Positions 2,471 through 18,298 of a stretch of 29,927 nucleotides of DNA are shown in pieces. This DNA comes from a virus. Position 1 is the stretch's first letter. Each line of letters opens with the position of its first letter. The notes under the pieces are model-generated. The model made no database searches, was not told the DNA's origin, and was given only the letters and a program-made list of their open reading frames with translations. The stretch is taken from positions 1 through 29,927 of IMG/VR virus record IMGVR_UViG_3300023237_000720, one strand, 5' to 3'. The translations under genes and the position numbers were made by a program.

Positions 2471-4501
2471 CTACTTAGTTTGCGCTCTAAAAATTCCGTC
2501 CCAGATCTCTAAGTCGTTAATGTCAGACTTTTCAAGTTCCGTAATACGCTCGCTCATTAACACATAATACTGTTCAAGTTCTCCTGAAAAGGCCAACTTA
2601 TTACCGCCAGCAATCCTCTTAGCTTCGTTCCAGTCTCTGTTTCTATATGCGTCGAGATACTCCTGATGTTTCTTTATCTCGACATCAAATGATGAAGTTA
2701 CAGGAGTGTATATTGTTACTGGATCTTCTTTGCCTTTAACAGCAATTAAGTCTAGTTCGATTAATTGTGTGTCGGTTACCGACTTTGCTGTTTCTTCACC
2801 AATGATTGTGATGACTCCGTACGATTTGGATTGGCCTTCAAGCCTGCTTCCAAGATTGACAGCATCACCGAGTACACTGTAATCAAACCTTTGATCAGAA
2901 CCCATATTACCCACGACGCAGGCACCAGTGTTAATACCAATACCAATATTAATAGGTAGTAGATTATCTTTGGATAGTTCTTCATTAAGTCGCCTAACTC
3001 CATCAACCATGTCTTGCGCCGCCAGTACTGCTTTTTGTTCATGACCTTCTATCTCCAGTGGCGCATTCCAGAACGCCATAATACAGTCTCCCATATACTT
3101 ATCTATGGTTCCCCTATGCTCCATAATTATGTTAGTCATGGGAGTTAAGAACTTATTAATAAGTCGTGTTAGACCTTGTGGATCTGTTTTATACTGTTCA
3201 CTAATAGGGGTAAATCCTCTGATATCACAAAACAAGAATGTCATGACTCTGGTAACACCACCTAACTGCATCTTCTCAGGATGCTTCTGTAATTCTGCTA
3301 CCAGCTCTTTACTGATGTAAGTTCCAAACTGTTTCTTAATCTGTTGCTTCTGATAAAATTCGCTTAAGAACTTAACTGTATATGCATGCACATAAGTTAA
3401 CACCAAGGCAAATATAATTGCTGTTATGTCAAACAATAGTCGTTGTTCTGTGTAATAGTATTGAGCCGCATAATAAATGCCTACAACAACCGCTATTACA
3501 GGCACAAAGCCATATGTCCAACTTGATATAAAAATAGCAAGCAAGCCTAATACTACAATTGCCAGTAGTTCTGCACCGTCTGCCCAATCAGCACGTACAA
3601 TGTTTACACCATTGAACATTGTACCTACTACTGCGGCTTGTACTTCATGTGGCCAACTGCCACCTAATGCTGTTGCTACAGGCTGGTTAGTACCTGCCGC
3701 TGTTGGGCCAATAATAACTACGCCTCCACCAAAATCTTCTGGCAGATTAGTTAGACTATGTTTATAACTTTGTTGGCTCCAGTCTATCCAGATACGTCCC
3801 AGTGCATCAGTAGTTATAGTACCAAAGGCTGGTATACGCATTTTCTCAACACCGTATTCAAACAGTTTGATCTGAAAGGTTGTGTCTCCTGCGGCTGATC
3901 TTAATATCTCTAACGGTACGCCTGGGTATAAGTTTTCGCCCACTGCGGCAACTAATGGAATGCGTCTAGTAACACCATCTATCTCTGGTAATGTGTTAGC
4001 AATACCAACACCGTATGCACGTTGTTCTAGCTCTTCAGTGTTTGCTATTATGCCAGGATAGTTGATAATTGTGTTCATGTACTCTGGATTTAAAATCACT
4101 GCACCTGGTTTCTTAGGTGTGTTTTTGCTCCATTGGCTAGGTACACTTGTTAGTATGACAGGATAAGACTCCATTGCCTCTGCTAGTGCTAGGTCCTGAT
4201 CTGATGCTTCTGGCATGAGAACATTTAACACAACCAGCCCTGCATTCCTGTTATATAGGTCTACAATTAAGTCTGCATAATAGTCTCTGGGCACGGGCCA
4301 TGCGCCTATTTCGGTTAGTGCAAGGTCGTCTATATTAACAGTGTGTATGTTATTTTGTACTGGTTCTTGGCTTGTAATTAGAGTATCGAAGTAACGTAGC
4401 CTAACACTTTCCACAAATCCTGGATCCGACATTTTAATATATGCGCATATTAATAATGTGATTATTGCTGTCCAGGGACTCAGCAATATTTTTTTGAACA
4501 T
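2471..4501 (-). CDS. CHASE2-domain class III adenylate cyclase
   Basis: A 676-residue membrane enzyme predicted to make cAMP from ATP. Order: N-terminal transmembrane anchor (about residues 8-24); extracytoplasmic CHASE2 sensor (about 25-300, with IDDLALTEIGAWPVPRDYY and the HEVQAAVVGTMFNG end motif); three membrane helices (about 305-375); cytoplasmic class III cyclase domain (about 415-590). Catalytic features look intact: metal Asp in FCDIRGFT (near 425), second metal Asp and adenine-recognising Lys in DKYMGD (near 467-470), Asp in RFDYSVLGD and the Asn/Arg transition-state pair in NLGSRLEG (near 545). The Lys/Asp pair indicates adenylate rather than guanylate cyclase. It is 7 bases downstream of a glycosyltransferase-like gene in the same operon. 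A complete CHASE2 cyclase is unexpected in a phage. The sensed signal is unknown. Confidence 0.93.
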   Translation of the reverse strand: MFKKILLSPWTAIITLLICAYIKMSDPGFVESVRLRYFDTLITSQEPVQNNIHTVNIDDLALTEIGAWPVPRDYYADLIVDLYNRNAGLVVLNVLMPEASDQDLALAEAMESYPVILTSVPSQWSKNTPKKPGAVILNPEYMNTIINYPGIIANTEELEQRAYGVGIANTLPEIDGVTRRIPLVAAVGENLYPGVPLEILRSAAGDTTFQIKLFEYGVEKMRIPAFGTITTDALGRIWIDWSQQSYKHSLTNLPEDFGGGVVIIGPTAAGTNQPVATALGGSWPHEVQAAVVGTMFNGVNIVRADWADGAELLAIVVLGLLAIFISSWTYGFVPVIAVVVGIYYAAQYYYTEQRLLFDITAIIFALVLTYVHAYTVKFLSEFYQKQQIKKQFGTYISKELVAELQKHPEKMQLGGVTRVMTFLFCDIRGFTPISEQYKTDPQGLTRLINKFLTPMTNIIMEHRGTIDKYMGDCIMAFWNAPLEIEGHEQKAVLAAQDMVDGVRRLNEELSKDNLLPINIGIGINTGACVVGNMGSDQRFDYSVLGDAVNLGSRLEGQSKSYGVITIIGEETAKSVTDTQLIELDLIAVKGKEDPVTIYTPVTSSFDVEIKKHQEYLDAYRNRDWNEAKRIAGGNKLAFSGELEQYYVLMSERITELEKSDINDLEIWDGIFRAQTK

Positions 4502-4508
4502 AACGTAT

Positions 4509-5630
4509 TTACTCTATGTTATCTATTTTTTGTAGCAACTTGTTAAGCATGGCTTCTTTGGTCTTTTTAATAAGGTCCATAAACATAAAAAAGTTATATT
4601 GTGTTATAAACATAACTTTTTCGTAGACTCCTGCAGGATCTTGTTTAGCTAGATATTCAACTTGGTCAAATGCTCTATCAAATCTTTTTCTAGGATCTGC
4701 TATGTCGTCATAACTTTCATCTATAACCGAGTCAAAAGTTTCAAATCCTAGACTTTTTATGAATCGTAACGTATGCTGTGGTGCAAACATTATAAACATA
4801 CGTTGCGCCATAAACATCTTAGCAGTCTTCTCTGTCAGGAAGAAAGGTCCAGGATTTGTGTCATCTGGGTTGTTGCCAAAACTTTCACAACATATACTGT
4901 AGTGTGTCTTTTCGTATATGTCCCAGGGTGTGACTTCACTTATTTGATGTGGTTCTAAATCTTGTGGTTGTTCTTCTGTAAAGTTTTTGCTTACGTAAGG
5001 CCACAGCAACTCTTTGCCATCTAGTGTTTTTCGTACATGATCGTACAAGTACTTAGGGTTGTCTCCCCAATGATTAATAAACGTGTCTCTATAGTTTACA
5101 ATAGAGTTTGAGAGTAAATCTGGACGCTGTTGTAAACGTGCCATTACATAACTACGATGCAATTTACGGGATCCCAATAACGCATCAAACAGAAACTCAC
5201 GCTTATTATAACTACTCACTTGAATAGAGTTTAGGTTACGATGGTGAAACATCCACCAAGGTCTGTATATAAAGTCGGGGTCTGTTAGTTCAGTTGTAAC
5301 CCCACCAGCCGCAACCAGATAGTTTTTAATTCCAGCAGGTTGAATGCATTCTTCTATAATATAGTCTTGGCTATGACATTCTATATCACTTAACACCACC
5401 AGATCAAACTTGCTAAAGTCGTATTTTTTAAACTTCTCTCTATACGTATAACTGCCTGGACAATTAAACAATGCAGGCATCATAGCAATCTTACACGGTT
5501 GTGCTAGTGCTTCTGTGTAATCATCAGTAAACTGCCAGTTTACGTGATCGTGGCCTAACCAGTCACTAGCAACATTTATTGCACTGGTTGGGGTAACAAA
5601 ATTAAATATTTTGTGTTCAGATATTTTCAA
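4509..5630 (-). CDS. Glycosyltransferase-like protein (GT10/fucosyltransferase-like C-terminal half)
   Basis: A 373-residue protein with a TTG start. The frame is closed just upstream by TGA, so no longer start is possible, and the TTG overlaps the stop of the cupin remnant (TTGA), hinting at coupled translation. The C-terminal half has the pattern E-S...F-L-T-E-K-T-A-K-M, then LGFETFDSVIDESYDDIADP, then R-F-D. This matches the nucleotide-sugar-binding half of GT10-like glycosyltransferases seen in many marine phages. The + strand gene at 11025 is a paralogue with the same motifs (LTEKIFKPI, YGFKTFDGFIDESYD). Expected role: transfer of a sugar to a phage or host glycan. Donor and acceptor cannot be told from the sequence. 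Confidence 0.65.
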   Translation of the reverse strand: MKISEHKIFNFVTPTSAINVASDWLGHDHVNWQFTDDYTEALAQPCKIAMMPALFNCPGSYTYREKFKKYDFSKFDLVVLSDIECHSQDYIIEECIQPAGIKNYLVAAGGVTTELTDPDFIYRPWWMFHHRNLNSIQVSSYNKREFLFDALLGSRKLHRSYVMARLQQRPDLLSNSIVNYRDTFINHWGDNPKYLYDHVRKTLDGKELLWPYVSKNFTEEQPQDLEPHQISEVTPWDIYEKTHYSICCESFGNNPDDTNPGPFFLTEKTAKMFMAQRMFIMFAPQHTLRFIKSLGFETFDSVIDESYDDIADPRKRFDRAFDQVEYLAKQDPAGVYEKVMFITQYNFFMFMDLIKKTKEAMLNKLLQKIDNIE

Positions 5631-5765: not shown

Positions 5766-5911
5766 ACTTCTCTGTCTTCTAGTTGTTGTACTATGCTGTC
5801 ACGTTGTGCATCTGTATAGCTAATCCAGTTGGCTATTTCTTCTTGTGTACGATTACAGCCCAAACAATAGCCATTTTCCATAACACAAATTTTCTGACAA
5901 GGTGATTGCAT
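5762..5911 (-). CDS. DUF1289 family mini-protein
   Basis: A 49-residue protein. It begins MQSPCQKICVMENGYCLGCN and continues with a segment of the form R-T-x-x-E-I-A-x-W, ending with a short acidic helix. This is the whole DUF1289 pattern: S-P-C-x-x-x-C, then C-L-G-C-x-R-T-x-x-E-I, then W-x-x-x-x-D-A-x-R. Four cysteines (5, 9, 16, 19) probably bind a metal. DUF1289 proteins are common in Proteobacteria; their role is unknown to me. The ATG overlaps the stop of the QueD-like gene (TAATG) and its own stop overlaps the ATG of the cupin remnant (ATGA), so it belongs to the same operon. Confidence 0.85.
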   Translation of the reverse strand: MQSPCQKICVMENGYCLGCNRTQEEIANWISYTDAQRDSIVQQLEDREV

Positions 5912-6411
5912 TACTCATACAAGTCCTCGTTCCATTCTCTGTGTCCCTCACGCCAAGCCATGTTGCTTTGTGTTTCACGTACTTCTACTCTGTAACACCA
6001 AAGTCTATCTGCTTCGCTTTGCCCCCACATGTCTGGGATATACACACCATTTACATATTTGTACAGTTGGTCTGCAAGGCCTTCGCAACCAAGTTTTGGT
6101 AAGATAGTTAGTTTAGCCAACTTCTTTGCTTGCAGTTGCTTGTACATTTCTATTTCTGGGTCGTCTTCAGCAACCAGTAGCGTATGGTCAAACTGATCCT
6201 GTAATATTTGCTTTAGTTCCGTTAATCCGCCGTAATCGGCAACCCAGTTTCTAACATCTAGGTCGTCTGTTCCAAAAAAGAAACGCATTGTAAACGCATA
6301 ACCGTGTATTACGTTGCAGTGACTGTCAGCTCTCCATTGTCTATATGCACACGGAAACTGATCAACGTATTCTTTTGTGCTCACGTACTTGTATTGTCTT
6401 GGTTCGTTCAT
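5911..6411 (-). CDS. QueD / 6-pyruvoyl-tetrahydropterin synthase-like protein
   Basis: A 166-residue member of the PTPS/QueD fold family, which in bacteria makes 6-carboxytetrahydropterin for preQ0/queuosine. Matching points are Cys32 with HGYAF (36-40), the WVADYGGL stretch with its Asp (59), FDHTLLV with the Asp-His pair (75-76), and the C-terminal Glu (VEVRET, near 146). Odd: two of the three usual zinc histidines appear replaced. AAHR of the bacterial enzyme is CAYR here, and HGH is HGY, so classical zinc-dependent chemistry may be lost or altered. Similar HGY proteins occur in cyanophages as I recall. No other queuosine or preQ0 genes lie in the window. It is the first gene of the operon leading to the cyclase, behind the promoters at 6435-6568. 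Confidence 0.75.
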   Translation of the reverse strand: MNEPRQYKYVSTKEYVDQFPCAYRQWRADSHCNVIHGYAFTMRFFFGTDDLDVRNWVADYGGLTELKQILQDQFDHTLLVAEDDPEIEMYKQLQAKKLAKLTILPKLGCEGLADQLYKYVNGVYIPDMWGQSEADRLWCYRVEVRETQSNMAWREGHREWNEDLYE

Positions 6412-6573: not shown

Positions 6574-7800
6574 TTAGTCGCCTTGTGTTACAGTCAATGA
6601 GCATCCTGCACTGGTATAGCATGTTCCGCTTGTTGTTGATTCATCACTCATACTATGTGGTAAACTATATGTTTTATCGTTGGTGCCGTTCTGATCTAGA
6701 CTAAATGTCCAACTACCACCGCTCTCTGTTAGTTCAACAGTAGCCGCATGGTCACCAGCACCTTGCTGTGTTATTGTAGCAGTATTGTTGTCACCAATTA
6801 AATCCAATTGTAGATAATGGTTGCCCCCATCTTTCTGAATCAGTGTTGCTGAGTTACTATCTCCGTTAACATCAATAAATGCTGTATGGTTCCCACTGCC
6901 TGTTTGAGTTAAGTCTAGTATATTACTGTCGCCTAAAATTTCAGCTTCTGTATAATGCCCATAGCTGGTTGCTGACGTACTAGCATCTTGATCTATGTCG
7001 ATGTCGTTAAGGTTTCCTGTAACATTTAGCAACAAAAGACTTGGTTCACCTGCCTGCGAAATAAAAATATCATTGCTATCACCTGTTATATTAATATCTA
7101 TATCGTTACTAGAGCCTGAACTTATAGCTGATCTATTAGAGTTTATTCTAGTTTGTTGTGCAGAAGTTGGCCCAGAAGAATATGATGGCGTTGCTGAAGA
7201 ACTACTCGATGTAGAAGTTGTACTGAGCCAACTTGTGGGTATGTTTGCTTGATTAGAATACTGATAATCAGTTAAACTGTAATTGATATCAAGTTCTGCA
7301 CCGCCTCCCCACTCGTACCACCAAACTGTAATTGGATATTCTTGCCCGCCCGTAAGTGTAATAGAACCTTGAGCATTCCAAGTGGCACCACCTTGTTGTT
7401 GCCAGTCCTGGATTACGTTAGTGCCATCTATGTTCATAAACACGCCATCATCTGCTCTTACACCAAAGTACACAGTTGTTGATACACCTGCTGTGCCTGG
7501 CCATGTGATGTATCCTGTTATTTCTAATGCTACATAATCTGAACGACCACTGTCTAATACACTACCCCAATTATACCCACTTATGCCTGACATCGTTCCT
7601 GTGCTGAGTACACTGCTTAGATAAGATGGACTTGAGTTCGATCCATCACTATTATAGCCTGCTACGTTATCGTAGTATGGAAATTCAAGACTGGGTGCAT
7701 ATGAGGTTATGTAATATGAGGTATAATCTAAATCTGCCCATGTAGGAGTAGCAACAAATATTAACCAACTAAAGAGTATTAAGACAAGTCTTTTAAACAT
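6574..7800 (-). CDS. Secreted PA14-domain protein with curlin-like repeats
   Basis: A 408-residue exported protein. A signal peptide (MFKRLVLILFSWLIFVATPT, cut after TWA) is followed by a PA14/GLEYA-like beta domain (about residues 75-180) with VYFGVRADDGVFMNIDGTNV and a late VWWYEWGGGAELDINY strand. This fold usually binds carbohydrate. A Ser/Thr-rich linker (about 190-225) leads to some six curlin-type repeats (for example ITGDSNDIFISQAG, ILGDSNILDLTQTG, LIGDNNTATITQQGAG), each a strand-Q-x-G-x-x-N unit as in CsgA/CsgB. The last residues are CSLTVTQGD. Its ATG overlaps the stop of the FecR gene (TAATG). Likely role: a surface amyloid-like adhesin or cap exported through CsgG. Acceptor sugar and location are unknown. 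Confidence 0.8.
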   Translation of the reverse strand: MFKRLVLILFSWLIFVATPTWADLDYTSYYITSYAPSLEFPYYDNVAGYNSDGSNSSPSYLSSVLSTGTMSGISGYNWGSVLDSGRSDYVALEITGYITWPGTAGVSTTVYFGVRADDGVFMNIDGTNVIQDWQQQGGATWNAQGSITLTGGQEYPITVWWYEWGGGAELDINYSLTDYQYSNQANIPTSWLSTTSTSSSSSATPSYSSGPTSAQQTRINSNRSAISSGSSNDIDINITGDSNDIFISQAGEPSLLLLNVTGNLNDIDIDQDASTSATSYGHYTEAEILGDSNILDLTQTGSGNHTAFIDVNGDSNSATLIQKDGGNHYLQLDLIGDNNTATITQQGAGDHAATVELTESGGSWTFSLDQNGTNDKTYSLPHSMSDESTTSGTCYTSAGCSLTVTQGD

Positions 7801-8897
7801 TATTGACTCTGTATAATAGTTATTTCTGTTCCTGAACCACCTTGAACTTGTATTTGAGCTGGGACGTCATCCTGTGTAATATTTACGTTGCCTTCCATAA
7901 CTCGTTCCAGACTTATCTCAGCAACATGAGGTGGTCTCTCACTTCTCATAAAAATCTCTTCTTCGTTTGCATACCATAATATCCAACTGTACTGTTGTAT
8001 TGTTGGTAGCGTCTCGTTTGTTTCCAATTGGTCTCTGTTTAAGTCCACTGTGGTCAAGTCCAGCATATTGCCTAAGAAATCAAAATCTAAGTAATTTATG
8101 TCAAGTTCGTAATTATTTGCTAGTTCATCTTCTTCGTCTAACTGGTTAGTGTCTAAATCATCAAATTTTAATAAGTCTTTGTCTAGTGGATCTTTACTGC
8201 GCTCTTGCTCTTCTTGAGCTATCCTAACTTCTTCTGGTGGACTAATAATAAGAAAATTGTCAATCAATGCTTCTGTAATGTTAACAATTGTTGGTTCAGT
8301 AGGCATTGAATCACTGCTAGTTACCAATGTAGCCTGAAATGCCTGATTCATAATAACAGCACCCACGTCTGTTAGAACTTCAATCTCCCCCACATAACAG
8401 TCTACTTCATTGTCAGTTGGGCAACTAGGTAGTAGAATAACAAGACTACGTCCTATCTCGTCTACAGTCATTGTGAAGTCTGTTCCTCGAACAGCAATAG
8501 TAGCAGTTGGTGTTTGAATGTTAACATTCTCAGCATTGTCTTTTGCTATTTTACCAGATGCGTAGCGTACTGTGCCTAACACTACTTTCATGCCTAGTTT
8601 ACCTGGCGTTTCACTCCCTGGATCGTAGATAAATTCATCTACTATTAATTTACTTTGTTCGATAATGCGGATTTTGGTGTTATCTGCAAAAGTTATGCCT
8701 ACTTTTGACTTTGCTGTCTGTATAACATCTTGCATAAAGATGTCAGCACCTTTTTCGCTAGGTAGTTTTGATTTTGCTCTGCTTATCTCCGCAGGCCCAG
8801 TTTGTTCTGTAACATTCCCTATACCTTTTGCAAATACTGTAGAGGATATAAGAAATGTTACAGCAAATAGAGTCCTACTGAACTGTGATGTCAACAT
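7800..8897 (-). CDS. Exported FecR-domain protein with a curlin-like C-terminal tail
   Basis: A 365-residue protein. The ATG at 8897 is preferred because it begins a clean signal peptide (MLTSQFSRTLFAVTFLISST, cut after VFA). A FecR domain follows (about residues 35-150): IRIIEQSKLIVDEFIYDPG, GMKVVLGTVRYASGKIA and TPTATIAVRGTDFTM are the hallmark stretches. The middle is acidic and low-complexity (many D, L, E, N). The last 35 residues read as curlin-like strands, VNITQDDVPAQIQVQGG then GTEITIIQSQ. FecR proteins of this kind are not the TonB regulators but periplasmic or cell-wall beta domains. It overlaps the curlin gene by 23 bases and the PA14-curlin gene by 3. It could anchor or nucleate the fibre. 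Its exact role is inference. Confidence 0.8.
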   Translation of the reverse strand: MLTSQFSRTLFAVTFLISSTVFAKGIGNVTEQTGPAEISRAKSKLPSEKGADIFMQDVIQTAKSKVGITFADNTKIRIIEQSKLIVDEFIYDPGSETPGKLGMKVVLGTVRYASGKIAKDNAENVNIQTPTATIAVRGTDFTMTVDEIGRSLVILLPSCPTDNEVDCYVGEIEVLTDVGAVIMNQAFQATLVTSSDSMPTEPTIVNITEALIDNFLIISPPEEVRIAQEEQERSKDPLDKDLLKFDDLDTNQLDEEDELANNYELDINYLDFDFLGNMLDLTTVDLNRDQLETNETLPTIQQYSWILWYANEEEIFMRSERPPHVAEISLERVMEGNVNITQDDVPAQIQVQGGSGTEITIIQSQ

Positions 8898-9516
8898 CGT
8901 TGTCTTGCCCGTCGATGTTAAGAATAACATTTGAACCTGTAACATCATTTAAGATGTCAACAGTATTAGCATCGCTTAGGTCTAACGAATCTGCTCCAAT
9001 AGTTACTGTGTTAGTTTGACTTGCACCTGTTGCTTCAATGTTAACAGCGTTGGTATCACCTGTTATCGAAATAGTATTTGAAGTTGTACTGTCAGTAATA
9101 CCGCCTGTACAAGTCATTGCAACCCCTGATGCACTGTCGTTAGATCCACAAACTGTTGCCCAGTTTGTATCACCCGTAATGTCAATATCAACAGTTGTAC
9201 TGGATGCACCGTCAACACTAACGTTAGTTTCGTTACTGCTACCCAGAACATCAATATCAACATTTGATGAAGTTGCGCTATTTTCTAATTCAATGTCTGC
9301 ATTATTCAAATTACCGTCTTGGGTAATACTTAATGTAATACTATCACCACTGAGTGTTGCGGCATCTCCCGACGAGTTTACTGTGTTAGTCCCGTTCTGT
9401 TGTATAACTGTGATTGTTGAACTATCACCTGCCTGATCAATATACACGTCATTCGCAAAAACCGTGCCACAAGTTATCAGTAATATTGCACCTACAATAG
9501 TTCTTAAAATTTTCAT
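8875..9516 (-). CDS. Curlin-repeat protein (CsgA/CsgB-like major subunit candidate)
   Basis: A 213-residue exported protein. The ATG at 9516 is chosen for its AGAGGAAAA ribosome site and the clean signal peptide MKILRTIVGAILLITCGTVF (cut after VFA). The mature part starts with a good curlin repeat (VYIDQAGDSSTITVIQQNG), then less regular strands: LSITQDGNLNNADIE, DIDITGDTNWATV, SITGDTNAVNIEATG, ending GQDNDVDITVQ. It is rich in D, N, S, T and G and poor in charged basic residues, as in secreted amyloids. One Cys pair (near VCGSNDSASGVAMTC) may form a disulfide. It lies between csgG and the FecR gene. I expect it to be the main CsgG substrate, more diverged than E. coli CsgA. Confidence 0.8.
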   Translation of the reverse strand: MKILRTIVGAILLITCGTVFANDVYIDQAGDSSTITVIQQNGTNTVNSSGDAATLSGDSITLSITQDGNLNNADIELENSATSSNVDIDVLGSSNETNVSVDGASSTTVDIDITGDTNWATVCGSNDSASGVAMTCTGGITDSTTSNTISITGDTNAVNIEATGASQTNTVTIGADSLDLSDANTVDILNDVTGSNVILNIDGQDNDVDITVQ

Positions 9517-9548
9517 TTTTCCTCTTCCCTTGGCCATGTAGCCACACA

Positions 9549-9569
9549 TATCAGATCATAGTGATGATA
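9549..9569 (-). other. Leader hairpin before the curlin gene
   Basis: On the minus strand TATCA-TCA-CTA-TGA-TC-TGATA can form an 8-bp stem with a TC bulge, in the 106-base gap between csgG and the curlin gene. The gap also contains TTTAAATA, a weak late-like box. The hairpin may process or stabilise the mRNA so that the substrate is made in a different amount from the pore. Low certainty. Confidence 0.3.
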
Positions 9570-9622
9570 TAACACTTATTGCTATTTAAATAATACTGCA
9601 CAAATAAATACATAGCACTATT

Positions 9623-10513
9623 TCAAAGTGGGTTCTTTTCTATTAGTTTTAGCTGTTTTTCATACTCTTCTTGTAACATTTCGACCTCTGACAGCTGTTT
9701 TGACACATTTTCTATTCTGTCAGATGATACAGTGACCTCTGAGTTTTTAAAGTCCCAGTACCCATTTGCTTTGCCTTGCATAATCATTTCTATTACTGCG
9801 GCGTCAATAACTCGTTGAACTGCAACTGTGGTAGGCTCGTTTGTGTAGTTACCAGCTTCTATCTCTACGGCACGTGTTCCCATATCAATAAATCTAAATG
9901 CTGATAGACTAGTGCCATAACTTATAATAGTCTTACTAGCAGTAACTGCCACTAATACCTCACCAGTCTGAGTAGAAATAACTCGCATCGCAACTGTTAC
10001 TACATCCTCCCTATACTCCTGGTGTAATCCTATTCCTAAATATCTTGCACCACTACCGCCTGTTTTTATATTACTATCGTACCCTACTATAGCACCTTCC
10101 AGTAAAATTCCTGCATATTTTAATGGCTTAAGTGTACTTTGATCGTCAACTGCTTGTCTTTGTTGCCTAATAATCTGTCTCTCTTTAGTTAGGTTGTCTA
10201 AGCCAACACGCTCAATAACCTTAAACCACTCACCGTTGCCTACTTCTTTAAGACTTTTAATTACCCATTCAACCGACCCCTGTGTTACTGCTGTAGATAT
10301 GTTTGAAAAACGCTCACTGGGTTTACGTTGACCTGTTTTGTCTTCAAACGAATAAACAGCAATGTATATAGGTCCTTGTGCAGGAGGCGGGATATTATAA
10401 AACATTTCGTCTTGGCTCTGTACAATTGTAGGTGCTTCAAAGGATGTTTTACCAGCGACAGTTGCACATCCTGAAACTAACAGTGTTGCCATTAACATCA
10501 TCAAGATTTTCAT
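9623..10513 (-). CDS. csgG: CsgG, curli secretion pore lipoprotein
   Basis: A 296-residue outer-membrane lipoprotein that forms the curli export channel. The N-terminus MKILMMLMATLLVSGCATV has a perfect lipobox (LVSGC), cut before the Cys. The body follows CsgG: IYIAVYSFEDKTGQRKPS, then the serine/threonine channel region ISTAVTQGSVEWVIKSL, WFKVIERVGLDNLTKERQII, YAGILLEGAIVGYDSNIKTG, the ARYLGIGLHQEYREDVVTVA beta pair, ISTQTGEVLVAV, and a final helix after NEPTTVAVQRVIDAAVIEMI. E. coli CsgG is 277 residues, so the length fits. It sits one base after csgF and upstream of three curlin-like substrates. All key regions look intact, so a working pore is likely. Confidence 0.96.
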   Translation of the reverse strand: MKILMMLMATLLVSGCATVAGKTSFEAPTIVQSQDEMFYNIPPPAQGPIYIAVYSFEDKTGQRKPSERFSNISTAVTQGSVEWVIKSLKEVGNGEWFKVIERVGLDNLTKERQIIRQQRQAVDDQSTLKPLKYAGILLEGAIVGYDSNIKTGGSGARYLGIGLHQEYREDVVTVAMRVISTQTGEVLVAVTASKTIISYGTSLSAFRFIDMGTRAVEIEAGNYTNEPTTVAVQRVIDAAVIEMIMQGKANGYWDFKNSEVTVSSDRIENVSKQLSEVEMLQEEYEKQLKLIEKNPL

Positions 10514-10514
10514 A

Positions 10515-10964
10515 TTAGAAAGAAAAGTCTCCTACAGGTACAGAAAATGTGGATAATATCGACCCATTACTGTCAGACACTGTTACAGATATAACACCAT
10601 CAATACGAGACCATGCTACTGTGTCACCAAACGGTGTTGTTACTATTCCTTCAGCATCAGCTGCCGCCGCCGCCTCACCAAAAAGGCTATCACTAATTTG
10701 CTTACTGAGCTGACTGTAGATCCTAGATTCCAGGTTATTCTGAAACTTCCAGGTATTTGTGGCTCGCAAATCTCGCTCTGATTCATCAGACGAAGCCTTT
10801 GCTTTTTTATCGTTTTCAGTTCTTCTATTAGACTCTAACTGTTCAATAGTTAGCACATGCGCACTATACCCGTTTCCTGTAAACGCAGGGCTCTTATAAT
10901 TAAACGTTAAATTGTCTGCAGATGCCACTGAGGCCATAAATAAAAACATTAATAGGTACTTCAC
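10515..10964 (-). CDS. csgF: CsgF, curli assembly factor
   Basis: A 149-residue periplasmic/surface protein. The GTG at 10964 is chosen because GAGGAT sits 5-6 bases upstream; an upstream in-frame TTG at 10976 lacks such a site. Signal peptide MKYLLMFLFMASVASA, then the mature start DNLTFNYKSPAFTGNGYSAH, which matches the CsgF peptide that threads into CsgG. The rest shows the usual helical middle with an E/K/S-rich stretch (about residues 50-75) and the beta C-terminus (DGVISVTVSDSNG). In E. coli CsgF helps couple secretion to nucleation at the surface. The gene opens the operon csgF-csgG-curlin-FecR-PA14. csgE, csgC and csgD are not seen nearby. Confidence 0.93.
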   Translation of the reverse strand: MKYLLMFLFMASVASADNLTFNYKSPAFTGNGYSAHVLTIEQLESNRRTENDKKAKASSDESERDLRATNTWKFQNNLESRIYSQLSKQISDSLFGEAAAAADAEGIVTTPFGDTVAWSRIDGVISVTVSDSNGSILSTFSVPVGDFSF

Positions 10965-11024
10965 TTTTATCCTCAAATATACTACTTATTTGTATTTACT
11001 ACTTAATAGGCCCCAAACACTTGT

Positions 11025-12218
11025 ATGTTTAATATTGACCACCATTATGACATCCTATACGCCAACTTGTTATCAAATAAGCATTTACAAGGGCATGCTT
11101 TAAAGAGCTTTGATACGTGTGAATCAAATAACGACATGCTAAAGTATCCAGATTCTTCACTGTTTCAACTTGAAGATGTGTATTTTTATGACCAAGAACC
11201 TTTTGGGATTAGTACGCAGATACCGCAAAGTATGTATGACGTCGTGCGTAAACTACAAGATGGCAGGTGGGATTTAAAGTATAATATATGGGCAACTAGC
11301 GAGGTTAATAATCCCTTGTTAGATGCATTTTGTAACAAGAATAACTTAATTAAATGGTATTATTTTTATCATGCATTTGCTAGTCTTGACTGGTTTAGAA
11401 GTGCAAAATTTTCCCCCAGGGTCGATGTCAGTCAAGGAGCAAGTTATATAAGTTTAAATAACCTGTGCTCTGAATCAAGAATTTATAGATCGTTGTTTGT
11501 GGCAAAACTGTATGATCAAGGGCTGTTAGGGGAAGGTGTTGTTTCATACAATCTTAAGGACTATGACAATAACACATTTATTTCAGAGCAAGATAAAAAA
11601 CTTATTAAAAAGATGTCAGAGCGTAGTCCCACTTTTAGGATACAAAAGACCAATTACCTACGTGACAATGCAAGTGCTGAACTAGAGTACGATCTCTGGA
11701 CAAGTGGTTTTTGGCATATAGTCAGTGAGACCTGCTTTTACGAAAAAACAAATCATCTTACCGAAAAAATATTTAAACCTATCGTTGCTAGACAACCGTT
11801 TATGCTATTAGGCTGTACAGGCAACTTAGAGTACTTACGTTCATATGGTTTTAAGACATTTGACGGATTTATTGATGAGAGTTACGATACAGAAACAGAT
11901 CCCGCTATTAGATTAGATATGGTAATTAAACAGATAAAAAGTATATGTAACTTGTCAGCAACAGACAAACGTAGGATGTATCTAGAAATGTTGCCTATTT
12001 TAGATTATAACTTTAATCACTTTTATAATACATTATTTGATATATGTTGGCAAGAGCTATTGGATAACTTTGAAATAGCGGATAATCTGTTACAGAATAA
12101 GCAACAGCATTATGCAAGACACCCTGACTTAAAAGTAATAGATGGTGAACTGGGGAGTGTTAACACATTACCAGGTAATGCAGGGAAACAGTTTAGAGAA
12201 AGATGGAAATTTAAATAG
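11025..12218 (+). CDS. Glycosyltransferase-like protein, paralogue of the 4509-5630 gene
   Basis: A 397-residue cytosolic protein on the opposite strand from its neighbours, starting 60 bases from csgF. No clear ribosome site precedes the ATG. The C-terminal half carries GT10-like motifs: SETCFYEKTNHLTEKIFKPI, an aromatic/Pro turn QPFMLLG, then YGFKTFDGFIDESYDTETDP and RLDMVIKQI, the same order as in the 373-residue protein at 4509-5630. The N-terminal half is diverged (YFYDQEPFGISTQIPQSMYD). Together they would be two glycosyltransferases of related type, perhaps for different acceptors. Its last 8 bases overlap the end of the convergent gene at 12211. Confidence 0.65.
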   Translation: MFNIDHHYDILYANLLSNKHLQGHALKSFDTCESNNDMLKYPDSSLFQLEDVYFYDQEPFGISTQIPQSMYDVVRKLQDGRWDLKYNIWATSEVNNPLLDAFCNKNNLIKWYYFYHAFASLDWFRSAKFSPRVDVSQGASYISLNNLCSESRIYRSLFVAKLYDQGLLGEGVVSYNLKDYDNNTFISEQDKKLIKKMSERSPTFRIQKTNYLRDNASAELEYDLWTSGFWHIVSETCFYEKTNHLTEKIFKPIVARQPFMLLGCTGNLEYLRSYGFKTFDGFIDESYDTETDPAIRLDMVIKQIKSICNLSATDKRRMYLEMLPILDYNFNHFYNTLFDICWQELLDNFEIADNLLQNKQQHYARHPDLKVIDGELGSVNTLPGNAGKQFRERWKFK

Positions 12219-12867
12219 CCCACTTTTTAAATACATCACCAAGTTGTTTATACAGCAATGGTATATTATTATCAAAAGCAATCTCAAACGATATTATAAA
12301 AAATACAGATTTTTCTGAGTTGTCTGAGCGCAACGAATGCGGAACAGAACCGTTCCCTATAAAACCACAATTTTTATATGTCTCTAAAATTGGCATTTCG
12401 CTACTATCAAGCCACTTGTCAGATGGCTCAGCATCTGTTACTGGTTTAGAAAAGGCACAAAATGTGGGCCATGCTTCTGTTGTATAGTCTGGCCTACTAA
12501 CCTGTCGACGTCTAAAACCAGTTATGTCATGTATATTCCATGACACGCCACCTGTTGTCATATACAACCCTATATTATTTCTGTTTTCTTCGACGACCTC
12601 TTGTACAATAACACAATTTGTGTTGGGTGGTAAGGGATATATCTCTAAATGACTTATTTGCCAAGGTAACTCATTATGTATAAAAGACAAAAAGTCTGCA
12701 CTAAGTATTTTATAGGCGTATTCGGCTGGCAGGTTTGCACGGTTTTTTGAATCAACCACAAACCTAGATTTATATTTCTCAGACCAAACAATGTGTAAAC
12801 TGTCTAAGTCAACATCAGGATCGATTATATTGTCAAGGTATGGAAATTTATATCTGGTATATCTCAT
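12211..12867 (-). CDS. Unknown phage protein, paralogue-like to the gene at 12919
   Basis: A 218-residue protein of unknown function. Its middle (ADFLSFIHNELPWQISHLEI, then Y-P-L-P-P-N-T-N, then CVIVQE) matches the next gene upstream (YEFLQLIYGVGLSVDSIEIY, then K-I-P-Q-N, then CVIVEQ), so the two share a core. The C-terminal part contains GNGSVPHSLRSDNSEK followed by a strand FFIISFE. The His/Arg spacing recalls the distal metal and 2-oxoglutarate ligands of Fe(II) oxygenases, but no clear HxD is seen, so I do not assign it. It begins right after a terminator hairpin (12878-12902), with no clear ribosome site. Confidence 0.6.
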   Translation of the reverse strand: MRYTRYKFPYLDNIIDPDVDLDSLHIVWSEKYKSRFVVDSKNRANLPAEYAYKILSADFLSFIHNELPWQISHLEIYPLPPNTNCVIVQEVVEENRNNIGLYMTTGGVSWNIHDITGFRRRQVSRPDYTTEAWPTFCAFSKPVTDAEPSDKWLDSSEMPILETYKNCGFIGNGSVPHSLRSDNSEKSVFFIISFEIAFDNNIPLLYKQLGDVFKKWAI

Positions 12868-12877
12868 CGCAAAGAAT

Positions 12878-12902
12878 AAAAAGACACATCACGTGCCTTT
12901 TT
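12878..12902 (-). terminator. Intrinsic terminator after the 12919-13551 gene
   Basis: On the minus strand AAAAAGGCAC-GTGAT-GTGTCTTTTT forms a 10-bp stem with one G-U pair, followed by a short T-rich tail. The G-U pair forms only in the minus-strand RNA; on the plus strand it is a mismatch, which supports minus orientation. It ends the transcript of the preceding gene 17 bases after its stop. Confidence 0.7.
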
Positions 12903-12918
12903 ATTTTGTTAACAACGG

Positions 12919-13551
12919 TTAAATGTAATCAGCTAATGCTGTTTGATGTTCTGCCAGTGTAGTCGCCCCTATTAGGAACACACATACTGCCCAGCCTACT
13001 GCACCAGCGCCATTTGTGCTGTTAGTAGGCAGATTAAATTGCATTATGGTAGGTGTGCTATCAGTTACTGAGTCTATTGCTGTAAGTTCACTACAGTATT
13101 TCCAGTTTGCTTCTTCTGTGCCTGCGCCATCGTTAACATAAACATTGCAGGCGCCGCCCTGCTCAGTAGCAGTCTTACCAGTTACATCATAAGATCCTGT
13201 GACCAGGGCATCCCCGCCCCATTGTTCTACAATAACACACATTTCACCAGCAGTTGTTGAATTTTGTGGATATCCATCGTAGTTTTGAGGAATCTTATAT
13301 ATTTCTATAGAGTCAACACTTAATCCTACGCCATATATCAATTGCAAGAATTCATATGATAACGCATTACTAACAACAGCATTATCTGTAATTGTCTTGG
13401 TCATCCCATCGGTGGGGCCAGCCCCTAAGGCCAAGTAGGTATGTCCGTTTGCACCTTCCTGACTTGTAGTCTGACTTTCGAAATCGTAATCTACATTACG
13501 AACCGTAACACCTTCCCCTAAACTTAATACTTGCTTTGCCATGTCGGTCAA
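12919..13551 (-). CDS. Unknown, probably late or structural phage protein
   Basis: A 210-residue protein with a composition rich in G, T, V, N and A, typical of virion or decoration proteins. It has no signal peptide; the hydrophobic stretch AVGWAVCVFLIGATTL near the C-terminus is probably a core strand. It shares a core with the gene at 12211 (SIEIYKIPQNYDGYPQN then EMCVIVEQWGG). It has its own late-promoter-like box (CATAAATA, 13574-13581) and its own terminator (12878-12902), so it is probably transcribed as a single late unit and abundant. Ribosome site AAGGAT lies upstream, at slightly long spacing. The function is unknown. Confidence 0.65.
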   Translation of the reverse strand: MTDMAKQVLSLGEGVTVRNVDYDFESQTTSQEGANGHTYLALGAGPTDGMTKTITDNAVVSNALSYEFLQLIYGVGLSVDSIEIYKIPQNYDGYPQNSTTAGEMCVIVEQWGGDALVTGSYDVTGKTATEQGGACNVYVNDGAGTEEANWKYCSELTAIDSVTDSTPTIMQFNLPTNSTNGAGAVGWAVCVFLIGATTLAEHQTALADYI

Positions 13552-13573
13552 TCCTTAAATTAGTTATTCAATG

Positions 13574-13581
13574 TATTTATG
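13574..13581 (-). promoter_or_regulatory. Late-promoter-like box CATAAATA
   Basis: Minus strand CATAAATA, 7 of 8 matches to the T4 late box, 23 bases before the ATG of the 12919-13551 gene. It directly follows an inverted repeat that ends the upstream gene, so a promoter start here is plausible. Confidence 0.5.
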
Positions 13582-13598
13582 CCTATTTTGAAATAGGC
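13581..13598. repeat. Perfect 8-bp inverted repeat at a gene end
   Basis: GCCTATTT and AAATAGGC are separated by 2 bases and overlap the stop codon of the oxygenase-like gene. There is no T run, so it is not a classical terminator. It touches the late box at 13574, so it may act as a transcript end or regulator site. Confidence 0.5.
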
Positions 13599-14122
13599 AC
13601 ATTTCCATAGAATATAGGTTCTTCAGGTAATTGCCTTATTAAACATACTCTAATAGACTCTAAGTTTTCAACACTGTGTATCTCCTGTACTGATAACTTA
13701 TACCATTTATCACGCTTTAATACTTTAGAATACACTAGTTCTATCTCGTCTCTGGGTACTGCTTTAATTGGTAGATATTGTTTATCTAACAATTTTTTAT
13801 AAAAACAAGTACTAACATTATCCCCACCAGGATCAATAATATACGATATAGTAAAGTCTCTATGGTCGTCTCTGTGAGGCACAAGATAGGAACCTTTTTC
13901 CAGTATCTGTATTATCCAGTTAAACTTGTCCTGTCCATTATCTTTAAACCACGTTGTTTTAAGACGAGACAAATCCACGTTGTAAATTTTAAACGTTGCC
14001 ACATTACTGAACTCTGGATCAAACTTATAAGAGTATATACCGGTATCTGGATTTGTTTGTAACAGTTCTGATATTACTTCCTTAGGTATACTGGGGATAT
14101 CTAATTGCTCAATATACATCAT
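13583..14122 (-). CDS. 2-oxoglutarate-Fe(II) oxygenase-like protein
   Basis: A 179-residue protein with the double-stranded beta-helix ligand pattern. VPHRDDHRDF gives H83-x-D85 for iron, EIHSVENLESIRV gives distal H149 and the 2-oxoglutarate-binding R158, and FTISYIIDPGG sits between them as the core strand. This is close to the aspartyl/asparaginyl hydroxylase-like and phage 2OG-Fe(II) proteins that are common in marine phages. Substrate unknown; nucleic acid, peptide or small molecule are all possible. It overlaps the previous gene by 14 bases. It begins with two ATG codons in a row. Confidence 0.75.
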   Translation of the reverse strand: MMYIEQLDIPSIPKEVISELLQTNPDTGIYSYKFDPEFSNVATFKIYNVDLSRLKTTWFKDNGQDKFNWIIQILEKGSYLVPHRDDHRDFTISYIIDPGGDNVSTCFYKKLLDKQYLPIKAVPRDEIELVYSKVLKRDKWYKLSVQEIHSVENLESIRVCLIRQLPEEPIFYGNVPISK

Positions 14123-14444
14123 CAGATGAATTCCCCGCCTCTGTTAGTATGTGTTTATAATAACTGTCTAGTTCGCCTTTAAATTTCCCCATCAGATGAC
14201 TTATGGCTTGTTCACAAAAACTATAATCCTGTTTAATATGGTTCTTAACCACCTCTCTGTGTAGACCACACCATTCTTCTAGACTTGATATTTCTTGCAA
14301 TGGTACTTTATCCATGTCTATAATAACGTGAGGTTCCACTGTGACAGTTTTTTCTCCCTCTGTTTGTGTGATTGGGGGTAACGGTAATACTGTGTAAGTT
14401 TCCGCTAACTTGTCTGCCGATTCCTTAGTAAAAACTACATTCAT
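14109..14444 (-). CDS. Unknown phage protein
   Basis: A 111-residue protein. The start at 14444 forms an ATGA overlap with the stop of the upstream gene, and AAAAGGCGC precedes it. It begins MNVVFTKESADKLAETYTVL and continues with a Pro-rich loop, then acidic helices (QEISSLEEWCGLHREVVKNH). No family is recognised. It is soluble with no export signal. It sits in an operon with the signal-anchored protein upstream and the oxygenase-like protein downstream. The ending is rich in S, D and N. Confidence 0.65.
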   Translation of the reverse strand: MNVVFTKESADKLAETYTVLPLPPITQTEGEKTVTVEPHVIIDMDKVPLQEISSLEEWCGLHREVVKNHIKQDYSFCEQAISHLMGKFKGELDSYYKHILTEAGNSSDDVY

Positions 14445-15591: not shown

Positions 15592-15897
15592 TTAATCTGC
15601 TTCTAGTTTTACTTGTAACGGAAAATTATGATTACGTGCAAGTAGTGTTACTTCCACGCCTTTTTGTTCTGCAATTTCGTATGGATAAGTTGCTACAATT
15701 GCACTGCCATACTCGTGTATTTTTTGTGTTATATCGGTAGCATCAGTTGGGTCGTAAGAAAATATTGAGATTAAAGTGGTAATTACAAATTCTACAGTGG
15801 TTTCGTTATCATTTAGATAGATAACATTAAACATTGACGGTTCTTTAACCTTCTCATTTACTGCTGGTTTTGAATCTACTTCTTTTATGTCTGGCAT
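15592..15897 (-). CDS. clpS: ClpS, N-end-rule adaptor
   Basis: A 101-residue adaptor. A GTG one codon earlier (15900) is an alternative start. A 25-residue flexible N-terminal arm leads to MFNVIYLNDNETTVEFVITT, matching E. coli VLVNDDYTPMEF. The pocket residues Asn and Asp (E. coli N34 and D35) are kept (N29, D30), the gate residue Met40 is Val35, and the pocket His (H66) is kept in KIHEYGSAIV (H61). ClpS binds proteins with bulky hydrophobic N-terminal residues and hands them to ClpA. No ClpA is seen here, so it would act on a host ClpA or compete with host ClpS. It shares its region with phage ClpX and Hsp20. A phage ClpS is uncommon as far as I know. Confidence 0.88.
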   Translation of the reverse strand: MPDIKEVDSKPAVNEKVKEPSMFNVIYLNDNETTVEFVITTLISIFSYDPTDATDITQKIHEYGSAIVATYPYEIAEQKGVEVTLLARNHNFPLQVKLEAD

Positions 15898-15915
15898 CAC
15901 TGTCTTTCTATATGT

Positions 15916-15937
15916 GGGGGAGATATTTCACTCCCCC
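15916..15937. other. Strong 7-bp hairpin between hsp20 and clpS
   Basis: GGGGGAG (15916-15922) pairs perfectly with CTCCCCC (15931-15937) around an 8-base loop. No T run follows on the minus strand, so it is a poor intrinsic terminator. It may set different mRNA levels for hsp20 and clpS by processing or attenuation. It lies 8 bases past the hsp20 stop. Confidence 0.55.
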
Positions 15938-15945
15938 TAGACTGT

Positions 15946-16398
15946 TTATTTGCTGTCGGTTACTGTTGAATCAGTGATCTTGATTGTTTTAGGTTTTAAT
16001 GCGTCTGGTACTTCACGCACTAAATGCACATTCAACATACCCAACTCAAGTGTAGCGTTTGCTACCTTAACATGGTCAGCGAGTGTGAACTCTCTGCGGA
16101 AGTTGCGGCCGCCAATACCTTTGTGTAGGTAGTTGACATCTTCGTCTCCTTTAGGAGCAGTTCCTTCAATCTTTAGTTGATCACCATCTGTAGTAACCTC
16201 AAGATTCTCCATACCAAAGCCAGCAACTGCTAACGAAATCATATACTCATCTTCGTTAATTTGTGCTATGTTGTATGGGGGGTAACCATTTCCATTTGGA
16301 CTATTTGCAAATTGTCTTTCCATTTCGTTAAACAGTCTATCAAAGCCAATAGTGGCTCTGTGGAAGTGTGGTAGGTCTAGAGTTGTTAGTCTTGTCAT
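15946..16398 (-). CDS. Small heat shock protein Hsp20 (IbpA-like)
   Basis: A 150-residue alpha-crystallin chaperone that holds unfolded proteins. The ATG at 16398 is set by the ribosome site AAGGAG six bases upstream; a longer reading upstream is just leader. Order: N-terminal arm with IGFDRLFNEMERQF as in IbpA/IbpB; NGYPPYNIAQINEDEYMISL opens the alpha-crystallin domain; GRNFRREFTLADHVKVANAT and GMLNVHLVREVP give the beta7-beta9 strands; the C-terminal I-x-I motif is IKI in KTIKITDS. All parts are present. It lies behind a late promoter and a ROSE-like leader, so it is probably made late and more at higher temperature. Hsp20 is common in T4-like cyanophages. Confidence 0.95.
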   Translation of the reverse strand: MTRLTTLDLPHFHRATIGFDRLFNEMERQFANSPNGNGYPPYNIAQINEDEYMISLAVAGFGMENLEVTTDGDQLKIEGTAPKGDEDVNYLHKGIGGRNFRREFTLADHVKVANATLELGMLNVHLVREVPDALKPKTIKITDSTVTDSK

Positions 16399-16404
16399 TG
16401 TTTT

Positions 16405-16450
16405 CTCCTTAATATTAAGCAAGATTAATTGTAGCACCCTTTCGGCGTGC
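16405..16450 (-). promoter_or_regulatory. ROSE-like RNA thermometer candidate in the hsp20 leader
   Basis: The about 80-base leader has two hairpins. The first (16434-16450, minus GCAC-G-CC-GAAA-GG-GTGC) is a 6-bp stem with a bulged G and a GAAA loop. The second (16405-16422, minus UUGCUUA-AUAU-UAAGGAG) pairs UUGCU with the Shine-Dalgarno AGGAG: U-G, U-A, G opposite G, C-G, U-A, then U-A and A-U. The U(U/C)GCU opposite AGGAG with a G opposite G is the hallmark of ROSE thermometers, which control small heat shock genes in Proteobacteria. Folding was done by eye only. Confidence 0.6.
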
Positions 16451-16486
16451 CGGTAAATGTACTCCGGTTCATCCTTTGTACACATT

Positions 16487-16494
16487 TATTTATA
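16487..16494 (-). promoter_or_regulatory. T4-type late promoter box TATAAATA for hsp20
   Basis: Minus strand has the exact T4 late consensus TATAAATA, 88 bases before the hsp20 ATG and just after the bS21 stop. The start site would lie near 16480, at the head of the ROSE-like leader. Confidence 0.65.
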
Positions 16495-16513
16495 CAGGGT
16501 CTTTCTGTATAAG

Positions 16514-16765
16514 TCAATATTTCTTTTCGGGTAATTTTTCCAAAGCAAGTTGTTTAAGCCAACGTTTACGTGCTTGGGCGGCTTTTCGTTTGCGGAGAGT
16601 TGTTGGTTTAATATACTCAGTTTTATCCTGCACCTGTTGTAATTTTCCGCTTTCTTGCACTTTTTTCTTTAGTTTGCGTAATGCTGTTTCCACATTACCA
16701 TCTTTAACGAACACTGATGTGCCTGATAGGTGTGCATCAAATTGATTATTTTTTTGGTATTTCAT
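16514..16765 (-). CDS. rpsU: Ribosomal protein bS21, phage-encoded
   Basis: An 83-residue homologue of small-subunit protein bS21, which sits near the anti-Shine-Dalgarno end of 16S rRNA. The ATG at 16765 gives MKYQKNNQFDAH; the frame is open further upstream but only inside clpX. The core VKDGNVETALRKLKKKVQES, then EYIKPTTLRKRKAAQARKRW, matches the bS21 pattern (x-x-x-E-x-A-L-R-x-x-K, then Y-x-K-P-T-x-x-R-K-R-K). E. coli bS21 has 71 residues; the extra length is N-terminal. It starts inside the last 20 bases of clpX. Phage bS21 is known from marine phages, including SAR11 phage HTVC008M as I recall. It probably replaces host bS21 to bias translation. Confidence 0.93.
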   Translation of the reverse strand: MKYQKNNQFDAHLSGTSVFVKDGNVETALRKLKKKVQESGKLQQVQDKTEYIKPTTLRKRKAAQARKRWLKQLALEKLPEKKY

Positions 16766-17969
16766 ATTTAAAGTTTGCTTTTTTGTTGTCCTTAATAACT
16801 TTTTCGGTAATAGTAATACTCTTAATGTGATTCTTTTTAATTTCGGCCATGTCAAACATATAAGGCTGTAATATTCGTTCTAACACAGCCTTAAGTCCTC
16901 GAGCACCTACTTTTAATTTTACTGCTTCTTCGGCAATGGCTCTTAATGAACCACTATCAAAGTTTAATTTAATGTTATCAACACCAAAGTAAAATTTCAT
17001 TTGTGCTAATAAATTGTGTTTAGGCTCTTTAAGTATAGCAACATAGTCGTCTAGTGTCAAGTCATTTGTATGCACTATAACAGGAAATCTGCCCGTAAAT
17101 TCTGGTATCATACCAAACTTAACAAAGTCCTCGTGTATAATCTGACTTCTATCTGTTCCTTTACTTTTAAGTTTGCTGCCAAAACCAATAGCAGTGGCAT
17201 TGATACGTTTTTCGATAATTTTCTCTAAGTCCACAAATGCACCACCAGCGATAAAGAGTATATTACTTGTGTCTATGTCTACACTCTCACTAACGACCAT
17301 TTTCTTGCTTGCTTTTACTGATATTTTGCATTTGGTGCCCTCAACGAGCTTTAAAAGTGCTTGTTGAACGCCCTCTCCTGAGACGTCCTTGCTAGTAGTA
17401 CTTGATTCGCCTTTACGTGCAATTTTATCTATCTCATCAATAAACACAATACCCTGTTCACATTTCCTGGGATCGAATCCTGCTTCTGCTAATAAACGCT
17501 CTATAACGTTCTCTACATCTTCGCCCACGTAACCAGCTTCGGTTAAACTAGTTGCATCAGTAATAACAAATGGCACCTTGAGGTATTCTGCGATAGTCTT
17601 AGCTAATAATGTTTTGCCTGTTCCCGTAGGACCAAACAATAATAAATTACTCTTATCCAACTTGATGTTGGTATTGTTAAACACTCTTTTATAATGATTG
17701 ACCACGGCTACAGCAATAGCTGTTTTTGCCTCATCCTGCCCAATAATGTGTTCGTCTAAATGTTTCTTTATTCCCACAGGGTCTAGGGTCTCAGCGATCT
17801 TTAATTCTGGTATGATTTTATCTTGTTTTTCTTTCGCTAAGATATTAGTACATAATTCTGTACATTCATCACAAATACCAACATCATTGCTTATTATTAA
17901 CGTTTCTACTTCACTTTTATTTTTGCCGCAGAAATTACATACTACTTCTGGCTTATCCTTGGTGTTCAT
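16746..17969 (-). CDS. clpX: ClpX-type AAA+ unfoldase
   Basis: A 407-residue unfoldase (E. coli 424). The ATG at 17969 gives an ATGA overlap with the upstream gene; an in-frame ATG two codons earlier (17975) is possible. Zinc domain with C11, C14, C33 and C36 (CNFCGK, CDECTE), Walker A GPTGTGKT (113-120), pore-1 loop GYVG (146-149), Walker B IVFIDEIDKI (D178, E179), pore-2 loop KDVSGEGVQQ, and the ClpP-docking IGF loop (261-263) are all present, as is the sensor-2 GARGLK. The RKH loop, which helps bind ssrA tags in E. coli, is replaced by KKM (222-224) with no gap in the alignment. It probably docks host ClpP with altered substrate choice. Close to ClpS and Hsp20. Confidence 0.95.
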   Translation of the reverse strand: MNTKDKPEVVCNFCGKNKSEVETLIISNDVGICDECTELCTNILAKEKQDKIIPELKIAETLDPVGIKKHLDEHIIGQDEAKTAIAVAVVNHYKRVFNNTNIKLDKSNLLLFGPTGTGKTLLAKTIAEYLKVPFVITDATSLTEAGYVGEDVENVIERLLAEAGFDPRKCEQGIVFIDEIDKIARKGESSTTSKDVSGEGVQQALLKLVEGTKCKISVKASKKMVVSESVDIDTSNILFIAGGAFVDLEKIIEKRINATAIGFGSKLKSKGTDRSQIIHEDFVKFGMIPEFTGRFPVIVHTNDLTLDDYVAILKEPKHNLLAQMKFYFGVDNIKLNFDSGSLRAIAEEAVKLKVGARGLKAVLERILQPYMFDMAEIKKNHIKSITITEKVIKDNKKANFKYEIPKK

Positions 17970-18298
17970 TGGCATCTTTCTAAAATTAGTTCTAAAACGG
18001 TTTGGCTGTCTGTTGAGATTGCTTTTTTACTCTTAAGTAACTCTGTTTTTAAATCTATATGTTCTGTTAACTGTGTATTGTTTACTATAGTGTAGTCCAC
18101 AATCTCAGCAACTTTACTTAGCCATTTTACATCATCGCTATAACTTCCGTATATATAAAAATCAATATTCATATCGAAGTTAGTAAAGGTTTCCTTAACT
18201 CCCATGAGCTCGTCCATGTTTATATCAAACAACAAAAACTTTTTACTGTCTCTGTCCAGTCTGTCTGGTGCCGATATAATATTAATTTCACTTACCAA
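17966..18298 (-). CDS. Unknown phage protein
   Basis: A 110-residue protein. The start is TTG with AAGGAG 7 bases upstream and lies inside the end of the previous gene. It reads MVSEINIISAPDRLDRDSKK and continues with alternating strands and helices (FLLFDINMDELMGVKETF, FYIYGSYSDDVKWLSKVAEI), a Rossmann-like alpha/beta appearance without a nucleotide motif. No export signal. I do not recognise a family. It is read just before clpX (ATGA overlap) and is part of the 20872-16514 operon. Confidence 0.65.
   Translation of the reverse strand: MVSEINIISAPDRLDRDSKKFLLFDINMDELMGVKETFTNFDMNIDFYIYGSYSDDVKWLSKVAEIVDYTIVNNTQLTEHIDLKTELLKSKKAISTDSQTVLELILERCQ

Follow-up and report, generated by a model that had tools for sequence, protein, structure and literature searches.

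A gene for a complete CHASE2-containing class III adenylate cyclase was found in a jumbo (marine-type) phage, tightly linked to curli secretion genes and to a gene for a FecR-domain protein. The reading favored here, to which a probability of about 0.55 is assigned, is that the FecR protein and the cyclase constitute a sensor pair within the phage curli module, by which the cAMP level would follow the condition of the envelope or the export of curlin. The DNA analyzed (hereafter the window) is the whole of IMG/VR record IMGVR_UViG_3300023237_000720, 29,927 bases in length.

The entire window was 100% identical to bases 249,565–279,491 (reverse) of IMGVR_UViG_3300025502_001322, a contig of 289,070 bases, and a third IMG/VR contig, listed with a different metagenome number, shared 20.5 kb of identical sequence with it. 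The 289-kb contig encodes a terminase large subunit, a DNA polymerase, a tail tube protein, an endolysin and an SbcC-like gene product, and its GC content is even throughout, at 38–41%. Taken together, the identity, the phage hallmark genes and the even GC content indicate that the window belongs to a jumbo phage of at least 289 kb and not to a chimera, and that the cyclase is truly phage-borne. An assembly chimera or a contig from a bacterium, for which the bacterial origin of the cyclase family could be invoked, was ruled out by the identity to the 289-kb phage contig and, with the same module present in the cultured phages HTVC008M and Melnitz, retains practically no probability. The phage location claimed in the earlier note, which had proposed a check of the neighboring genes, was thus upheld.

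The cyclase ORF comprises 676 codons with an ATG start. Two Pfam domains were recognized above their curated cut-offs, CHASE2 at residues 21–322 (E 2.4e-32) and Guanylate_cyc (PF00211) at residues 420–596 (E 4.1e-18), and the protein matched PHROG 35576 with an E of 5e-217. An AlphaFold2 model built on a 46-sequence alignment had a mean pLDDT of 90.5. Hydropathy and the model together placed a first membrane helix at about residues 4–25, modeled as 9–25, followed by an extracytoplasmic domain of mixed alpha/beta structure and by three further membrane helices (307–325, 332–353 and 360–392), the last of which continues into the cyclase domain; this is the layout of a CHASE2 receptor with a cytoplasmic output. 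In Foldseek comparisons the cyclase domain matched the solved class III enzymes CyaB, CyaC and Cya2 with TMt values of 0.80–0.87, that for CyaB (3r5g) being 0.87, so that homology to PF00211 and fold both place it in class III. In a viral structure library, one full-length structural match is named as a COG4252 transmembrane sensor from an uncultured phage.

Alignment of active-site residues identified in the window cyclase the metal-binding residues Asp426 and Asp472, the adenine-selecting pair Lys468 and Asp540 and the transition-state pair Asn549 and Arg553, which make up the canonical class III set, as well as Lys589; roles were assigned after PMC4215837 and from what is generally known of class III enzymes. 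The earlier description of a complete CHASE2 adenylate cyclase, with all the residues needed for ATP cyclization, an extracytoplasmic sensor and a normal membrane layout, was therefore confirmed in each of these respects. Judged by its sequence, the gene is predicted to encode a complete canonical adenylate cyclase that would make cAMP from ATP.

A different active site was observed in 13 of 94 cyclases of the phage group (genes L002, L009–L013, L015, L016, L020, L029, L222, L253 and L258), in which Ser or Gly replaces Asp540 and Ser replaces Asn549. The Melnitz enzyme is one of these, with Ser at both positions, whereas the window enzyme has the canonical residues and lies outside this form. 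All 76 cellular relatives retained the equivalents of both Asp540 and Asn549 and kept all catalytic residues. The altered-site cyclases included in a phylogenetic tree (L002, L009, L020 and L253) formed one supported clade within the phage group, and pairs inside this subclade gave dN/dS values near 0.08–0.09, a sign of strong purifying selection. Since the class III enzyme Ma1120 functions with Ala replacing the transition-state Asn (PMC4215837), the altered-site phage cyclases may still have activity, possibly with a different substrate or with another cyclic nucleotide as product.

Table 1. The curli module of the window and the genes between it and the cyclase.
Product	Position	Strand	Evidence or remark
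CsgF	10515..10976	-	Pfam CsgF E 1.4e-13
CsgG outer-membrane secretion channel	9623..10513	-	Pfam CsgG E 1.1e-54
First curlin-like repeat protein (csgB/csgA position)	8875..9549	-	Synteny and phmmer
FecR-domain protein, signal-like N-terminus	7800..8948	-	Pfam FecR E 3.6e-10; PHROG 37870
Second curlin gene: secreted PA14-domain and curlin-repeat protein	6574..7800	-	Pfam PA14 E 2.6e-10, Curlin_rpt E 2.6e-11
QueD-like 6-pyruvoyl-tetrahydropterin synthase	5911..6411	-	Pfam PTPS E 2.3e-13; PHROG 2389
Unknown 373-aa protein	4509..5630	-	Stops 8 bases before cyclase start
CHASE2 class III adenylate cyclase, 676 aa	2471..4501	-	Pfam, PHROG, AlphaFold2, Foldseek

Read along the minus strand from csgF (10976–10515), the genes follow the order given in Table 1 and include the components of the pelagiphage curli (type VIII secretion) module, namely csgF, csgG, a curlin-repeat gene, the FecR gene and the cyclase. 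The NCBIfam CsgG model matched the window CsgG at E 6e-57, under the cut-off of the model, and a lipobox (LVSGC) is present at the N-terminus. The first curlin-like protein, whose N-terminus resembles a signal peptide, had no Pfam match and was matched by phmmer to its positional counterparts in HTVC008M and Melnitz, which bear the annotation curlin-associated. The second bears an N-terminal hydrophobic signal, and a PA14 domain and curlin repeats are fused in this single secreted protein. The QueD-like gene, which is not found at that position in HTVC008M or Melnitz, and the gene for the 373-aa protein, which gave no match in Pfam, PHROG or NCBIfam, are probably unrelated cargo. By eye, the 373-aa protein and that encoded at 11025–12218 look paralogous (common GFxTFDxxIDESYD region); the two genes flank the curli module and neither product had a Pfam or NCBIfam match. 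A scan for promoters and terminators gave matches at chance level. Elsewhere in the window, genes for HSP20, a ClpX-like protein and a small ClpS-like protein (the last recognized by eye) adjoin at 15592–17975 as a phage proteostasis set, and two adjacent genes (480–773 and 773–1066) encode small membrane proteins of 97 amino acids each that look alike by eye.

The earlier note had regarded a phage-encoded sensor cyclase as unusual and had suggested a search of viral sequences. Relatives of the cyclase were encoded in at least 599 IMG/VR stretches and, with HTVC008M, Melnitz and the phages of PMC9599517, the enzyme turned out to be common in marine myophages. Upstream sequence of at least 8 kb was available for 32 viral cyclase loci, and in 31 of them csgF, csgG, curlin and FecR genes lay upstream on the strand of the cyclase; in the sole exception (L004) the module is encoded on the strand opposite to the cyclase. 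Conversely, all 39 viral FecR loci of sufficient length contained the cyclase, a count biased towards close relatives by the use of the window's own FecR as query. In some of these loci the cyclase lay ahead of csgF or had switched strand, and the linkage therefore outlasts rearrangement, even if, according to PMC9599517, the cyclase is not present in every phage curli region. Co-inheritance was also reflected in distance correlations of 0.77 between cyclase and FecR and 0.73 between cyclase and CsgG. A scan for relatives of the window CsgG, made with over-specific patterns, returned only two contigs, both identical. A 1499-base record named Salmonella phage (OR851715.1) contains an unannotated csgG and is possibly host DNA.

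Comparison with a homolog of 86% protein identity (L198) yielded dN/dS values of 0.078 for the whole gene, 0.087 for CHASE2 and 0.071 for the cyclase domain, which are rough because synonymous sites are near saturation. The cyclase gene is under strong purifying selection. It is intact in dozens of divergent phages, in which the metal-binding and Arg residues are invariant. Both observations speak against passive cargo or a decaying remnant, a reading for which no supporting evidence was found and which is very improbable.

In a quick tree with a midpoint root, not an inferred one, a fully supported branch separated all phage cyclases and four MAG contigs from 33 alphaproteobacterial cyclases. 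The four contigs (L084, L085, L109 and L152, assigned to Caulobacteraceae, Flavobacteriaceae, Saprospirales and Synechococcus), two of which contain the full curli module, are probably phage contigs binned into MAGs. The nearest cellular cyclases were alphaproteobacterial, with 34–41% identity, and the tree and these relatives agree with the alphaproteobacterial origin of the phage curli gene set published in PMC9599517. Cellular relatives lying beside curli genes were sought as a ready-made donor and were not found: a CsgG match was obtained in only 2 of 14 cellular genomes with close cyclases, without curli genes beside those cyclases, and no curli genes were detected in the flanks of 76 cellular CHASE2-cyclase loci.

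Those same bacterial loci, which include related strains and are not independent of each other, had FecR in their flanks in 32 of 76 cases, against about one expected from FecR density (50 domains across about 51 Mb); in 10 of the 76, mostly from Thalassospira, FecR lay directly upstream on the same strand. In Campylobacterota, too, genes for FecR proteins and CHASE2 cyclases lie in clusters (PMC9239204), and in Burkholderia an operon that regulates biofilm encodes a FecR-LysM protein together with a CHASE2 histidine kinase (PMC5192318). The ligands of CHASE2 are not known (PMC5192318). CHASE2 and FecR thus appear, from their gene neighborhoods, to be a recurrent bacterial sensor pair, and the phage module consequently looks like curli secretion combined with a FecR-CHASE2-cyclase sensor. 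On the strength of the bacterial examples, the FecR protein encoded together with the CHASE2 receptor in the window is likely to be the periplasmic partner of CHASE2 rather than an iron regulator, although in the phage the two genes, lying in one operon, could be linked passively. A further combination was observed in a proteorhodopsin-bearing genome of 1.21 Mb and 32% GC that lacks a cNMP-binding domain (L314), where positions 9534–14416 encode a CHASE2-phosphatase, its phosphatase part read from the sequence and not from a family search, and, two genes downstream, a FecR-domain protein.

Class III cyclases function as dimers. For the window protein we infer an enzyme that, as a dimer in the inner membrane, would convert ATP to cAMP inside the infected cell; its gene belongs to a phage-borne curli secretion module that further comprises csgF, csgG and the genes for two curlin-like proteins and the FecR-domain protein. 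Once exported, the FecR protein would pair with the periplasmic CHASE2 domain as a sensor, as such pairs appear to do in bacteria, and a change in cAMP would inform the cytoplasm about the condition of the envelope or about curlin export. Among the observations that run against this model are the two extra genes that separate the curlin gene from the cyclase in the window and the phage subclade without two canonical catalytic residues. A phage-encoded cAMP receptor was searched for as a cNMP-binding domain (PF00027) in 25 phage records, including the complete HTVC008M and Melnitz genomes and the 289-kb contig, and none was found; the output path is therefore missing from the sensor model. A bolder form of the model, in which marine phages hold a complete transmembrane second-messenger circuit of FecR and CHASE2 cyclase monitoring curli export or the envelope, the message being read by something not of the CRP type and the Melnitz subclade perhaps making a different cyclic nucleotide or using a changed mechanism, is tentative and rather unlikely.

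The absence of PF00027 from these phage records also bears on the proposal of the earlier note that the enzyme would raise host cAMP and could tune host metabolism or catabolite control, a reading taken here to imply reprogramming through a CRP-type receptor. The enzyme is intact, and the alphaproteobacteria with the closest cellular cyclases have many cNMP-binding proteins. However, PF00027 was also absent from 10 of 15 small proteorhodopsin-bearing alphaproteobacterial genomes (1.2–1.6 Mb; 28–35% GC, estimated from about 3.6 kb each), a set picked by a profile fitting SAR11 that may not include the host of the window phage. Both absences weaken the catabolite-control reading, which we regard as doubtful; cAMP receptors of other kinds are possible. 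As to the surface traits that, in the earlier note, the cyclase could tune in concert with curli, linkage to the curli genes was verified, and the support for that idea is this synteny. A less probable proposal, suggested in PMC9599517, sees in cyclase and FecR regulators of an iron- or CsgD-related kind by which the phage curli genes are turned on. Cyclase, FecR and curli genes do share an operon and, according to the same paper, cAMP leads to csgD transcription in model gammaproteobacteria, but the phages are there described as lacking CsgD, and no PF00027 regulator was present in the 25 phage records. Furthermore, the FecR match is to a short domain that is also paired with CHASE2 proteins in bacterial loci devoid of curli, and an iron role therefore does not follow. 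The sensor pair of FecR and CHASE2 offers a concrete alternative to the label of iron regulator. If active, it would be a second-messenger sensor brought by the phage to cells possibly poor in cAMP machinery of their own, and tied to an amyloid secretion system of widespread marine phages.

A phage curli module including an adenylate cyclase is already known in phages of SAR11 and of methylotrophs. PMC9599517 (2022) reports, in the sections concerned, the pelagiphage type VIII secretion module with FecR, histidine kinase and adenylate cyclase, together with its ocean-wide spread and expression; the gene set is that of the window, which comes instead from a jumbo phage. The text of PMC9599517 does not mention CHASE2, and no mention of the FecR-CHASE2 pairing was found in those sections. 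To this knowledge are added here the FecR-CHASE2 sensor reading, the separation of the phage cyclases from their alphaproteobacterial relatives, the altered subclade and the absence of PF00027.

The cyclase of the Pelagibacter (SAR11) phage HTVC008M (AGE60353.1), annotated in its record as adenylate/guanylyl cyclase, is the same CHASE2-cyclase, with 40% identity over 88%, and the gene order there (csgF-csgG-curlin-hypothetical (FecR)-hypothetical (curlin)-cyclase) matches that of the window. In contrast, the HTVC008M genome has 147 kb, compared with at least 289 kb for the window phage, in which two genes also separate the curlin gene from the cyclase and the latter has a longer C-terminus. 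Melnitz, a phage of Methylophilales (OM43), has a full-length homolog (QZI95054.1, likewise annotated as a cyclase) of 35% identity in the same module and gene order, with the substitutions described above and without the two inserted genes. Since both phages are cultured, the question is open to direct test. Among cellular systems, the CHASE2 cyclases of Thalassospira, Sneathiella, Terasakiella and other Alphaproteobacteria share the domain order and all catalytic residues of the window enzyme, some with FecR directly upstream as pairing partner, but differ in their 34–41% identity, separate tree group and lack of adjoining curli genes. The CHASE2-cyclase/FecR/phosphodiesterase/TPR cluster of Campylobacterota (PMC9239204) and the FecR/CHASE2-kinase biofilm operon of Burkholderia (PMC5192318) place FecR beside a CHASE2 sensor as in the window, although both are cellular with no curli reported, and the latter has a kinase output. 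In view of HTVC008M, Melnitz and PMC9599517, the window therefore adds a further case to a phage system that is already known and is not in itself a discovery.
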